Shown piece after piece: positions 14,300 to 22,706 of a stretch of DNA of 64,000 nt. The notes below the pieces were generated by a model. It saw only the letters and a program-made list of their open reading frames with translations, made no database searches and had not been told where the DNA came from. The stretch's first letter is position 1. Each line of letters starts with the position of its first letter. The DNA comes from Chloroflexota bacterium (GTDB taxonomy: Bacteria; Chloroflexota; UBA11872): positions 1-64,000 of the forward strand of contig JAPOVQ010000027.1 in NCBI GenBank assembly GCA_026708035.1, written 5' to 3'. Made by a program: the position numbers and the translations under genes.

Positions 14300-15052
14300 G
14301 TGCGATTCGACGTCGTCACCATCTTTCCCGGCATGCTGGAGCCTGTGCTGCAGGCAAGCCTGCTGGGCAAGGCGCGCGAACGCGGGTTGATCGACATCCA
14401 CGTTCACGACCTGCGGCGCTGGGCGGACCCGCCCCACCGACAGGTTGACGACTATGCCTATGGCGGCGGGCCCGGAATGCTCATGAAGCCCGAGCCGATC
14501 GTGCGCGCCGTCGAGGAACTGCGTACCGAGAACTCATGGACCGTGCTGCTCTCGCCACAGGCTCCGCCCCTCACGCAGCCGGCCGCGCGGCGCCTGGCCG
14601 AGCGGCCACACCTGATCCTCGTCTGCGGGCGCTACGAGGGCGTCGATGACCGGGTGCGCGACCTGGTCATCGATGAAGAAATCAGCATCGGCGACTACAT
14701 CGTTGCCGGCGGCGAGGTGCCGGCCCTGGTGCTCATCGAGGCAACCTCGCGGCTGATTCCGGGCGTCGTCGGATGCGAAGACTCGGTGCGGGACGAGTCC
14801 CATGCCGCGGGCTTGCTGGAGCATCCGCAGTACACCCGCCCGGAGGAGTTCCGCGGTCGGCGCGTGCCGGCGACGCTGCTTAGCGGCGACCACGGGCGCG
14901 TGGCGGATTGGCGGCGGGCGCACGCCCTCCGGCGCACGCTCGACCGGCGGCCCGATCTGCTGTCCGAACGCGACCTTACGGATACGCAGCGTCGGCAGTT
15001 GGCCGAGTTCGATCTCGACCGGCCCGACGCTGCCACCGAGGCGCTCCCGTGA
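14300..15052 (+). CDS. trmD: tRNA (guanine37-N1)-methyltransferase
   Basis: 250 residues from GTG 14300. It methylates G37 of tRNAs reading CNN codons and prevents frameshifting. The trefoil-knot SAM site is visible: YGGGPGMLMKPEP (about 54-66), LVCGRYEGVDDRV and SIGDYIVAGGEVPALVLIEA. The stop overlaps the start of the GroEL-like gene (GTGA). rimM, usually just upstream, is not present: the 110-bp gap after khpA holds no gene. Confidence 0.95.
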   Translation: MRFDVVTIFPGMLEPVLQASLLGKARERGLIDIHVHDLRRWADPPHRQVDDYAYGGGPGMLMKPEPIVRAVEELRTENSWTVLLSPQAPPLTQPAARRLAERPHLILVCGRYEGVDDRVRDLVIDEEISIGDYIVAGGEVPALVLIEATSRLIPGVVGCEDSVRDESHAAGLLEHPQYTRPEEFRGRRVPATLLSGDHGRVADWRRAHALRRTLDRRPDLLSERDLTDTQRRQLAEFDLDRPDAATEALP

Positions 15053-16695
15053 GCGACGTCGCGATCCTCCACGACCTCGAGGCGCGGCTGGCGCTCACGG
15101 CCGGGGTCGATATCGTCGCCAACACCGTCAAGTGCACCATGGGCCCGCGAGGGCGCAACGTGGCCTACCGGGGCGAGCTTGGCCCTCCCAAGATCACGCA
15201 TGACGGGGTATCCGTCGCGCGGGACATCCAGCTTCGCAACGGATTCCTACAGACCGGCGCGGCGATCGTCACGGAGGCGTGCCGGCTCACCAACACCGCC
15301 GCCGGCGACGGCACGACGACGGCCGCCGTGCTCACGCAGGCCTTGACGCATGAAGCTCAGCGGCTGGTGGCCGCGGGCGCGGACCCAATGCGCTTGCGGC
15401 GGGGGCTTGCGGCGGCGGTCCTGAGCGTCGACCAGGCTGTGCGCGAGCAGTCCAGGCCGATCACCACCATGCGCGAGACGGCCTGGGTGGCCGGGCTGGC
15501 GTCGCACGATGCCGATCTCGGGGAGATCATTGCCGGCATCTTCCACAGATTTGGGCTGGGGGCGGCGATCACCGTCGAGCTTGGCCAGGGTCTCAATACC
15601 GAGGCGCGCACCGTCGAGGGGATGCGGTTGGAGCGCGGGCTGGCCTCGCGCCAGCTGGCCACGGCCGGCGCCGGCATGCGCGCCGAGCTCGAAGACTGTG
15701 ACGTGCTCGTGACCGACCGGGAGCTCGGGGGCGTGGGGCCCATCCTCCCGTTCCTGGAAGACTATGTCGCCGGCGGCGGACAGCGCCTGCTCGTCGTGGC
15801 GAAATCCATCGGCGGCGAGACTCTGGCCACGCTCGTCGAGAACCACCGTCTCGGACGAATGTCCGTGATCGCCGTGCGCGCGCCGGTCTTCGGCGAACGC
15901 CAGCGCGCCATGCTCGAAGACCTGGCGATCTTCACCGGGGCCACGCTGGTGGCGCACGAGTCGGGCGACCCATGGGGATCGGTGCCTGTGAGCGTCCTGG
16001 GACGCGCCGCCCGGGTGCGCAGCGATACCAGCGAAACCTTGGTCATGGGCGGCGCGGGCGAGCCGCAGGCCGTCGCTGATCGCGCCGAGCTGCTGTGGCT
16101 CTACCGCGACCGCGCGAAGAATCAGTTCGACCGCGAGAAGCTGGAAGAGCGCATTCGGAATCTTTCCGGAGCGGTTTCGGAGATTCAGGTCGCCGCGCCG
16201 ACGGATGCCGAGCGCCAGGAATCGCGGCAGCGCGCCGAGGATGCCGTGGCCGCAACCCGCGCGGCCCTGGAGGAGGGAATCGTGGCCGGCGGCGGGGCCG
16301 CGCTGGCCCGCGCCGCGCGGGACCTTACCGCGCCGCCCGACGCGCACCCGGACGAGGCCGACGGCTGGCGCGTGGTGCAGCGCGCGCTGGCGGCGCCGGT
16401 GGCGACGATCGCCCGCAACGCCGGATTCGAGGGCGCCGTCGTGGCCGATGCCGTGGCGGCGGCCGATCCGGCGCGCGTGTTTGACGTCACCACCGGCGAG
16501 TATGTCGACCCGCTGGCGGCCGGCATCGTGGACCCGGTCGCCGTGGTGCGCGCGGCCTTGCGCTATGCGGCCAGCGCGGCGGTGATGATCGTCACCTCGA
16601 ACGCGGTGGTGGCCGACGCGGCGTCCTATGGTCCGTGGGTGCGCGGGCTGCGGCGTCGGATTGCTCGCGACGCCGGGATTCTGCTGGCCGGCTGA
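15049..16695 (+). CDS. Divergent GroEL-like chaperonin subunit
   Basis: 548 residues from GTG 15049, which overlaps the trmD stop; the frame upstream is trmD sequence out of phase. The ATPase elements are in register with E. coli GroEL: GPRGRNV (32-38), HDGVSV with Asp52, and AAGDGTTTAA with Asp87. RAEDAVAATRAALEEGI holds the Asp equivalent to 398, and GGGAALARAA follows. The apical region is less typical, and the C-terminus ends ILLAG without a Gly-Gly-Met tail. No groES is adjacent. It is probably a specialised paralogue rather than the housekeeping chaperonin, translationally coupled to trmD. Confidence 0.88.
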   Translation: MSDVAILHDLEARLALTAGVDIVANTVKCTMGPRGRNVAYRGELGPPKITHDGVSVARDIQLRNGFLQTGAAIVTEACRLTNTAAGDGTTTAAVLTQALTHEAQRLVAAGADPMRLRRGLAAAVLSVDQAVREQSRPITTMRETAWVAGLASHDADLGEIIAGIFHRFGLGAAITVELGQGLNTEARTVEGMRLERGLASRQLATAGAGMRAELEDCDVLVTDRELGGVGPILPFLEDYVAGGGQRLLVVAKSIGGETLATLVENHRLGRMSVIAVRAPVFGERQRAMLEDLAIFTGATLVAHESGDPWGSVPVSVLGRAARVRSDTSETLVMGGAGEPQAVADRAELLWLYRDRAKNQFDREKLEERIRNLSGAVSEIQVAAPTDAERQESRQRAEDAVAATRAALEEGIVAGGGAALARAARDLTAPPDAHPDEADGWRVVQRALAAPVATIARNAGFEGAVVADAVAAADPARVFDVTTGEYVDPLAAGIVDPVAVVRAALRYAASAAVMIVTSNAVVADAASYGPWVRGLRRRIARDAGILLAG

Positions 16696-16701
16696 GCCGG
16701 C

Positions 16702-17556
16702 TTAGTCGAACGACAGGCGGTCGATTACTCCGCGGCGGATCTTGAATCCGTGCTCGGCGTTCGGGAACGCGCCCTGCGTGACCTCGTCGCGGTATTGCGT
16801 CAACGCCTCCCGCGCGGCACCGGCCAGGTCGGCGTAGCGCCGCGCGTGGCGCGGGAGCGTTCGGCTGGTCAGCCCCAGCAGATCGTGCAGGACCTGAATC
16901 TGGCCGTCGCAGTTTGGGCCCGCGCCGATGCCGATCGTCGGAATCGCCAGTTTTTCCGTCACGACGGCGGCCAGACGCGCCGGAATGGCTTCCAGGACCA
17001 CGCCGAACGCGCCCGCGGCCTCTTGGGCTCGCGCGCCGTCCACCACGCGCTGCGCTCCCGCCAGGTTGACGCCCTGCGCCACATAACCGCCGGTTGCGAG
17101 CACGGACTGCGGGGTGAGGCCCACGTGCGCCATGACGGGGATGCCGCGGGCCGTCAACCCTTCGGTGATGCCGGCGACTTCGGCCCCGCCTTCCAGCTTC
17201 ACCGCCGTCGCGCCGCCGTCGCGCACCAGCCGCGCGGCGTTGTGCAGGGCGTCGTCGAGTGTGGCGTAGGACATGAACGGCAGGTCGCCGATGACCAGGG
17301 TGGCGGCAACGGCGCGGGTGACCGCGGCGGCGTGGTGCACGATGTCATCGACGGTCACGTGCAACTCTCGCGCGTGACCCAGCACGTTGGGTCCCAAGCT
17401 GTCGCCGACGAGAATTCCGTCGACGCCGGCCTGTTCGGCGAGACGGGCAAACGGGGCGTCGTAGGCCGTGACGCACACAAGCGGGGCCCCGCCCTTGCGG
17501 GCTCGGAAACCGCTTGCGGTTAGCGGCGGCTCACTCGAAGTTGCCTCGTGCGCCAT
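16702..17556 (-). CDS. panB: 3-methyl-2-oxobutanoate hydroxymethyltransferase
   Basis: 284 residues. Catalyses the first step of pantothenate/CoA synthesis, adding a hydroxymethyl group from methylene-THF to 2-ketoisovalerate. Motifs: VTAYDAPFARLAEQAGVD, ILVGDSLGP with a metal ligand, MAHVGLTPQ, LEAIPA with the catalytic Glu, and PTIGIGAGPNCDGQ. It stands alone, with panC not in the window. It converges on the GroEL-like gene with 6 bp between stops; GCCGGC repeats lie around the stop of that gene. Confidence 0.95.
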   Translation of the reverse strand: MAHEATSSEPPLTASGFRARKGGAPLVCVTAYDAPFARLAEQAGVDGILVGDSLGPNVLGHARELHVTVDDIVHHAAAVTRAVAATLVIGDLPFMSYATLDDALHNAARLVRDGGATAVKLEGGAEVAGITEGLTARGIPVMAHVGLTPQSVLATGGYVAQGVNLAGAQRVVDGARAQEAAGAFGVVLEAIPARLAAVVTEKLAIPTIGIGAGPNCDGQIQVLHDLLGLTSRTLPRHARRYADLAGAAREALTQYRDEVTQGAFPNAEHGFKIRRGVIDRLSFD

Positions 17557-17592: not shown

Positions 17593-18003
17593 CTAGTAGG
17601 CGTAGCGCTCCTCGCGCGACCAATCCACCGGCGCGAAGCTCGGCCTGGTTGGCATGCGGGTCAGCAGCTCGGGATCGAGGTCCGACTCGTCGTAGAGGCC
17701 GCGAATCTGATTGGATGGCAGGTTGAACTCGCGGGTCATTTCCTCGTAGAACGACTCAATGGCCTTGTAGCGATGGAACCACTCGACCGGGTCGTCGAAC
17801 GAGTCGCAGTGGTCGGCGAAGTAGAGCACGATGTCCCGCACGCTGACCTCGATGGGACTGGTTCGTCGGGGCAGGCAGGTGCGAAAGTCGTCAATCCACC
17901 CGATCTGGCGCCGCACGTCGCGCGCGGGCAGGCGCCGACGCCGACTGAGCTGCTCCGTATACCATGCGAGGGCGGTCCCAAAACTCGTGCACTCAGCTGC
18001 CAT
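17593..18003 (-). CDS. Hypothetical helical protein
   Basis: 136 residues. ATG 18003 is preceded by a strong ribosome binding site (GGGGGAGG, 7 bases upstream), which decides the start; the longer frame to 18078 runs through the terminator hairpin. The protein is charged and mostly helical, with RRQIGWIDDFRTCL, DIVLYFADHCDSFDDPVEWFHRY and a C-terminal PVDWSREERYAY. I do not recognise a family. The helical part faintly recalls the core-binding domain of tyrosine recombinases, but no catalytic domain is present. It is expressed downstream of the candidate leader RNA at 18061-18190. Confidence 0.6.
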   Translation of the reverse strand: MAAECTSFGTALAWYTEQLSRRRRLPARDVRRQIGWIDDFRTCLPRRTSPIEVSVRDIVLYFADHCDSFDDPVEWFHRYKAIESFYEEMTREFNLPSNQIRGLYDESDLDPELLTRMPTRPSFAPVDWSREERYAY

Positions 18004-18060
18004 CGATTGCCTCCCCCTGACAACTTGTGCCCGCGGACCTCGCCCTGGCCGACTGCCCAC

Positions 18061-18190
18061 ATAAAGACAATCGCCCATCCAAAATGGATGGGCGACGGCG
18101 GTGCCTTATTCGAAGCGGTCGGAATGGCGGACCACGAGCGAGCCTCCCCAAGCCCGAAAATGCAGCAACGTTACGGCCGGGGCCGTAAGC
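18061..18190 (-). ncRNA. Candidate structured leader or small RNA
   Basis: Leftward from the promoter at 18198-18225, the transcript would begin with a compact hairpin (TTACGGCC-CC-GGCCGTAA inside GCAGC/GCTGC, 18162-18197). About 65 bases of GC-rich, potentially paired sequence follow, then a perfect 10-bp stem TCGCCCATCC-ATTTT-GGATGGGCGA (18071-18095) and TTGTCTTT. That is the layout of a roughly 130-nt small RNA, or of an attenuator/riboswitch leader for the 136-residue protein gene 58 bp beyond. I cannot match it to a known RNA family. Confidence 0.5.
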
Positions 18191-18197
18191 TGCTTCA

Positions 18198-18225
18198 ACT
18201 GTAAGCCTTACTACGCCAATGTCAA
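18198..18225 (-). promoter_or_regulatory. Sigma70-type promoter, leftward
   Basis: Perfect -35 TTGACA (complement of 18220-18225), 16-base spacer, -10 TACAGT (complement of 18198-18203). It lies in the AT-richer gap before murD and drives the candidate leader RNA. Confidence 0.6.
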
Positions 18226-18460
18226 TAGTTCACCTTCGCGAAAGGTCAAAAGTTGGCGGCTCGCGAGTCAGACATCAAGGACGTCGATCTATTTTGAAGG
18301 ATCAAAATACGTCAAACTGTTCGACCATTGTCCGCCGTGCATGCTCCCCGTCCCTACCGTTTCAGATAGGCGCCGCGCGACTTGTCATAAGCGTTTGTCG
18401 TGACAGCCCGAATTCGAGGCTGCCGTCCGGCTATGGACTTCGTCCGGTCGGACGTGCGTC
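18226..18460. other. AT-richer divergent intergenic region before murD
   Basis: No gene seen. The stretch 18226-18345 is clearly richer in A/T than its surroundings and probably carries the rightward murD promoter as well as sequence upstream of the leftward promoter. Short imperfect repeats (TTCGCGAAAGGTC, TCAAAAGTTGGCGG) are present. Confidence 0.4.
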
Positions 18461-22350: not shown

Positions 22351-22706
22351 GGGGATGCCGGGTTTCGACAGAAGTCCGAGGTCCGCTGCTGCAGGTCGAG
22401 CACGCCGTCACGCTCGAAAAAAGAGACGGCAACCTAGTAACTGGCGAGCAAGAAGCGCTCCCACTCGCGGCCTAAGCGCCGCGACGTCTGCCCGGCTCGT
22501 GCCTAGCGGGCCGGACCAGGCGCCAACACCCTAGGCTGCGCCGGCAGAGGCGTCCGCATATGCCGGCTAAGACACGCGGACTGGTCGGGTTGCCCGCGGC
22601 CGAGCGGTGGGCAAGCCGGCGAGAACCATAGCGATCGGCTAAGCCTGTAGACGCGGCGGGGTGACGGCCTCTGGACGGGGCGTTCGACTCGCCCCCATCT
22701 CCACCA
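22351..22706 (+). ncRNA. ssrA: Transfer-messenger RNA (tmRNA)
   Basis: One-piece tmRNA of 356 nt. The 5' end GGGGATG pairs with CATCTCC before the encoded ACCA end, and the T arm GGCGTTCGACTCGCC is present. The 5' part has GGTTTCGACAG, typical of tmRNA. The tag frame ends GAA GCG CTC CCA CTC GCG GCC TAA; the inferred tag is GNLVTGEQEALPLAA, with the hydrophobic LAA end recognised by proteases. The resume codon assignment (GGC) is inference. Directly downstream of smpB. Confidence 0.95.

Follow-up and report, generated by a model that had tools for sequence, protein, structure and literature searches.

In the window (the whole 64,000-nucleotide stretch of Chloroflexota DNA that was analyzed), we find an RNA element directly upstream of a small gene, here called gene X, and we predict, with rather more confidence than doubt, that it is the 5' leader of this gene and terminates transcription conditionally, as an attenuator. 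Judged from its sequence record across relatives, the element is genuine and conserved, a leader RNA with a terminator that is present once per genome and belongs to a small regulator-like gene. Promoter, leader with intrinsic terminator, and gene follow one another on the same strand in all 19 genomes of the leader family (f1), which comprise the window's own genus (g1; 6 genomes) and a sister genus (g2; 13 genomes). The RNA family appears to be new and has no Rfam entry, while its general type, an on/off leader, is familiar. The parts are collected in the table.

Table. Features of the gene X leader and adjacent genes in the window
Feature	Position	Strand	Details or basis
Sigma-70-type promoter, TTGACA-N16-TACAGT	18198-18225	-	-35 at 18225-18220, -10 at 18203-18198
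Hairpin H1 at transcript 5' end	18161-18197	-	Fold and alignments
G-rich Shine-Dalgarno-like element, GGGGAGG	18143-18149	-	GGGAGG invariant across f1
Candidate mini-ORF, GTG...TAA (MVRHSDRFE)	18106-18135	-	7 nt past the Shine-Dalgarno-like element; stop 9 nt ahead of the terminator stem
Hairpin H2 over the mini-ORF	18115-18135	-	By eye in g1; alignment in g2
Intrinsic-terminator-like hairpin H3 and U-rich tail	18060-18096 (stem 18096-18070)	-	Terminator scan
Post-terminator spacer	18004-18059	-	Carries the gene X Shine-Dalgarno GGGGGAGG at 18017-18010, 6 nt ahead of the ATG
Gene X, 136 aa, lone tyrosine-recombinase core-binding-like 4-helix domain	17593-18003	-	ATG at 18003; structure model
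panB (ketopantoate hydroxymethyltransferase)	16702-17556	-	36 nt after gene X

The initial annotation had read from this region a leftward promoter and a downstream gene with a ribosome binding site, and both are present. Taken by itself, the window gives this promoter no advantage over chance: a scan gave one site of such quality in 19 kb compared with 1.4 +/- 0.9 in shuffles. Its 16-bp spacer and the pattern TTGAC[AGT]/TACA[GCA]T are nevertheless retained in 19 of 19 f1 genomes. It is conservation that places the element above chance, namely promoter geometry and leader in every f1 genome, above-neutral identity and double changes in the terminator. Transcription would start near position 18190 on the minus strand, and the hairpin that had been noted close to the start is H1, whose onset coincides with the expected transcript start.

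The distribution of the leader is narrow and regular. A DNA search of 61 genomes recovered it in six, which belong to a single genus and include the genome of the window, and reading of the upstream regions in g2 showed that gene X is preceded in all 13 genomes by a leader built in the same way. The covariance search over related genomes that the initial annotation had called for gave strong hits (E below 1e-22) in 19 of the 41 class genomes, exactly one per genome; these 19 are all f1, and each has its copy directly before gene X; the other 22 class genomes contain no match better than E 0.016. Across 400 phylum genomes the same 19 are strong and four others weak (E 0.001-0.007). The earlier statement that the element matches no known class is supported by Rfam, which, at gathering thresholds and at E<=10, contains no match to the leader; the only hits are two chance-level RAGATH matches on the opposite strand. 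Outside f1, three order-mates in family f2 (L031, L036 and L038) have a promoter, a leader of about 100 nt and a terminator before gene X, similar in layout, yet the sequence is unrelated and does not match the covariance model. In L038, a frame that starts at an ATG with a Shine-Dalgarno sequence continues across the terminator upstream of gene X. In family f4, none of the five gene X loci has a leader, and by eye a promoter lies directly in front of the gene.

Within the genus the leader is 81-100% identical while fourfold codon sites fall as low as 65% (12 chosen genome pairs). For instance, between the window and L016, the most distant member of its genus, identity is 65% at the fourfold sites of murD, panB and gene X and 62% from the upstream site to the promoter, compared with 25/25 positions in the Shine-Dalgarno-like stretch, 27/30 in the mini-ORF, 35/36 in the terminator and 36/43 in the spacer that leads from the terminator to gene X. 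A g2 pair, L019 and L021, has 66% at fourfold sites and 29/30, 34/34 and 45/48 in the mini-ORF, terminator and spacer. H1, at 69-86% within genera, is below the other leader parts. The spacer reaches 81-94% within genera against 60-77% for the stretch before the promoter, and this conservation along with the leader is expected of a single 5' UTR.

Folding and covariation both point to a structured RNA, in line with the GC-rich structured sequence of the initial annotation. The 145-nt leader folds into a more stable structure than 200 of 200 shuffles (z -3.54). In the 13 g2 leaders, H1 (10 pairs), H2 (17 pairs) and the terminator together have 97% of cells paired, and double changes occur at 5 pairs, compared with 0.9 +/- 0.8 in shuffles (0 of 500 shuffles reach this number); 11 of the 13 rows are close to each other and the double changes stem from L018 and L025. 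The six g1 leaders were left out of these statistics because H1 and H2 are in another register there. Using RNAalifold on 16 of the 19 leaders of both genera (L015, L024 and L027 were omitted as close to retained rows), we recover the terminator, with double changes between genera. Conserved pairing across relatives, which the initial annotation had made decisive for its proposal, is thus found, and it supports H1, H3 and, in g2, H2. H2 itself differs between the genera: in g1 it is a short pairing of GTGGTC with GACCGC, seen by eye, and in g2 a 17-bp stem with 96.8% of cells paired that spans the start and stop of the mini-ORF. The 3' arm of H1 (CGTTGCTGCA) is nearly invariant and its 5' arm variable. 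Since the 3' arm hardly changes even in L021 and L029, where its pairing partner is broken, it may serve another role.

The terminator described earlier is recognizable with altered dimensions. Its hairpin stands, with a conserved stem that carries double changes; the stem has 12 pairs in our scan, around a loop of 3, where 10 bp had been given, and the T-rich tail (TGTCTTTATG) amounts to a moderate U-tract in the window and a weak one in several f1 members. Terminator-like sites are mildly enriched in the scan as a whole (13 compared with 8.5 +/- 2.9 in shuffles). Between H3 and gene X, reading of the spacers by eye gave no second promoter. Duplex energies yielded no conserved antiterminator, as there is no common partner and the strongest candidate pairings vary in position and stability from one lineage to another. 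A long-range duplex of leader and spacer was striking at first but was rejected after comparison with shuffled controls (z -0.17 to -2.60), with L014, L016 and L020 near chance.

Between H1 and H3 lies a candidate reading frame, the mini-ORF, which with its own Shine-Dalgarno-like sequence was absent from the initial annotation. In 19 of 19 f1 leaders, a GTG lies 7-11 nt after GGGAGG and begins an open frame of 8-9 codons, whose stop falls 9-12 nt short of the terminator stem. The stop is TAA in 16 leaders, TAG in two and TGA in one, and the sole indel inside the frame, in L025, is of one codon. We compared complementarity to the 16S tail with single-base shuffles in 8 of 22 terminator-bearing leaders: the five from f1 lie within the best 1.2-5.2% of shuffles, and the three from f2 are no better than shuffles. 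The encoded peptide is poorly kept between lineages (MVRHSDRFE, MRRCHRRRD, MRFHKHNHD, MRRCRHRS), with codons that are Arg/His-rich in g2 and mixed in g1. None of these codons corresponds to a sensed amino acid linked to a gene X pathway, and gene X is no biosynthetic enzyme. The invariant GGGAGG, the GTG and the candidate ORF suggest leader translation as the switch.

Based on these data, we propose the following mechanism. The nascent RNA would fold H1, and most polymerases would stop at H3 unless a signal permits read-through into gene X; we infer that H3 terminates transcription and that read-through is regulated. Translation of the mini-ORF would be the switch. With the stop codon only 9-12 nt away from H3, a ribosome that translates the mini-ORF would open H2 and stand at the edge of H3. 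According to one published account, ribosomes can keep intrinsic terminator hairpins from forming (PMC5021804). The proposal can be set beside a known class of regulators by its parts. Ribosome-mediated attenuators, such as those of trp and his operons and the uORF attenuators of resistance genes, consist of a promoter, a Shine-Dalgarno sequence, a short leader ORF, an intrinsic terminator and the gene. The gene X leader shares the trp/his-type order, with a Shine-Dalgarno-like element and a candidate short ORF. Unlike the trp/his type, it has no conserved competing antiterminator that we could find, its mini-ORF codons mismatch any product of a gene X pathway, and the controlled gene encodes an unnamed DNA-binding-like protein.

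Other explanations differ on what the RNA acts upon and on what would flip it. The initial annotation had left the choice between a riboswitch-type leader and an independent RNA; the leader, as an attenuator, is the part of this that finds support. The presence of panB after gene X in 18 of the 19 f1 loci would suggest a metabolite riboswitch, perhaps one for the pantothenate pathway. We considered the pan RNA motif, a leader of panB operons reported from Chloroflexi among others (PMC2864571). This motif, a stem in which two A residues are bulged and which mostly occurs in tandem, was excluded: its covariance model (RF01749) matches neither the window nor, at E<=1, any of the 41 class genomes. 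Moreover, L025 retains the leader with no panB within 1.4 kb after gene X, there is no aptamer-like core, and strong matches are confined to one family (the same 19 genomes whether 41 of the class or 400 of the phylum are searched), so that we consider a riboswitch highly improbable. That the leader is kept in L025 without a nearby panB instead indicates gene X as its target. A trans-acting small RNA that by chance sits before gene X, which would then be expressed only by leakage, is also unlikely, if less so. Such an RNA would be expected to have what is seen here: its own promoter and terminator, stable hairpins, a length of about 125 nt and a G-rich single-stranded stretch. However, no strong copy occurs apart from gene X, and the conserved spacer without a visible second promoter also speaks against independence. 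The single copy, its constant position directly before gene X, the spacer and the f4 loci, in which a promoter stands without a leader, together support a leader acting in cis.

Within the cis-acting reading, the rival to leader translation is a non-coding structured leader, in which a protein, a tRNA or a small molecule rearranges H2 and H3 and the mini-ORF arises incidentally where an invariant G-rich binding site adjoins a hairpin. This account, to which we give a substantial but clearly minor probability, gains from g2, where the almost fully paired H2 covers both the start and stop of the mini-ORF, and from the invariant or nearly invariant G-rich stretch and H1 3' arm. In L030 the change of the stop from TAA to TGA also maintains H2. 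A hairpin over the mini-ORF accounts for the same changes as coding would. Against the non-coding account, the Shine-Dalgarno-like element, the GTG at a fixed range of distances and a stop before H3 recur in every f1 leader, and TCGTG is invariant in g1 too although H2 uses other pairs there. We propose the mini-ORF as the more likely trigger. The fuller version of the attenuator proposal is a new translation-sensing family in Chloroflexota known mostly through metagenomes, in which an 8-9-codon mini-ORF ending at the terminator edge would set the level of stand-alone recombinase-type DNA-binding regulators, themselves a new class, and, via panB, of pantothenate synthesis in most members; we offer it tentatively, at somewhat less than even confidence.

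Searches for the gene X protein recover 28 genomes among the 61 relatives, 28 among the 41 of the class and, with a profile, 28 among the 400 of the phylum (f1, 19/19; f2, 4/5; f4, 5/6). Protein-family libraries give it no name: there is no Pfam or NCBIfam match, only one weak phrog of unknown function (best E 0.0006), and a profile search of PDB sequences found nothing. An AlphaFold2 model (mean pLDDT 77.5, pTM 0.71) predicts a four-helix domain with the core-binding fold of tyrosine recombinases. The structural matches include 3nrw (Z 13.2), XerD (1a0p; Z 13.1, rmsd 1.7 over 90 residues) and lambda Int (Z 12.1), and the top 31 all belong to one superfamily, although the arrangement of helices in a bundle can by itself give Z values of up to 13; Foldseek E values are only 0.035 and above. 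The recombinase catalytic domain is absent, as the protein contains only the core-binding domain and a short tail. From the model, the protein is probably DNA-binding, and we infer that it is a DNA-binding regulator. A similar integrase core-binding-like fold is found in YopR of phage SP-beta, for which a role as DNA-binding repressor has been proposed (PMC8612738). YopR also has a C-terminal catalytic-like part, in contrast to gene X.

In the window, gene X and panB are probably cotranscribed as a g1 operon. panB does not follow gene X in L025 or in the f2 loci. Of the 23 f1 and f2 loci, 22 have murD in divergent orientation to gene X, and in L028 the contig ends first. A GroEL-like chaperonin gene (14908-16695), convergent with panB and gene X, is a neighbor of gene X in the f1 and f2 loci, L025 excepted. 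The interval from murD to the leader promoter contains GACAAACGCTTATGACAA (18382-18399, minus strand), which is conserved at all 18 f1 loci where the region is available (the contig of L028 ends before the site) and is single in its own genome at up to 2 mismatches. All five f4 loci have TTAACTATGACACA...CGGAAACGCA before gene X though murD is not adjacent, and L034 reads AGGCCGGAAACGCA. The site has a likeness to a Xer recombination arm, and it is possibly an operator of gene X. An inverted repeat, TATTTTGA-N4-TCAAAATA (18290-18309), precedes the promoter both in the window and in its near relatives and is only loosely kept in others. Elsewhere in the window, a tmRNA gene (22351-22706) matches Rfam at 137.5 bits and is not reported by ARAGORN.

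We found no report on Chloroflexi that combines transcription attenuation with a leader peptide, and regulatory leaders seem little described in Chloroflexota. With the leader of gene X, a covariance model is at hand and a proposed switch can be put to the test; the leader also draws attention to a protein family, as yet unnamed, that resembles a recombinase DNA-binding domain used alone.
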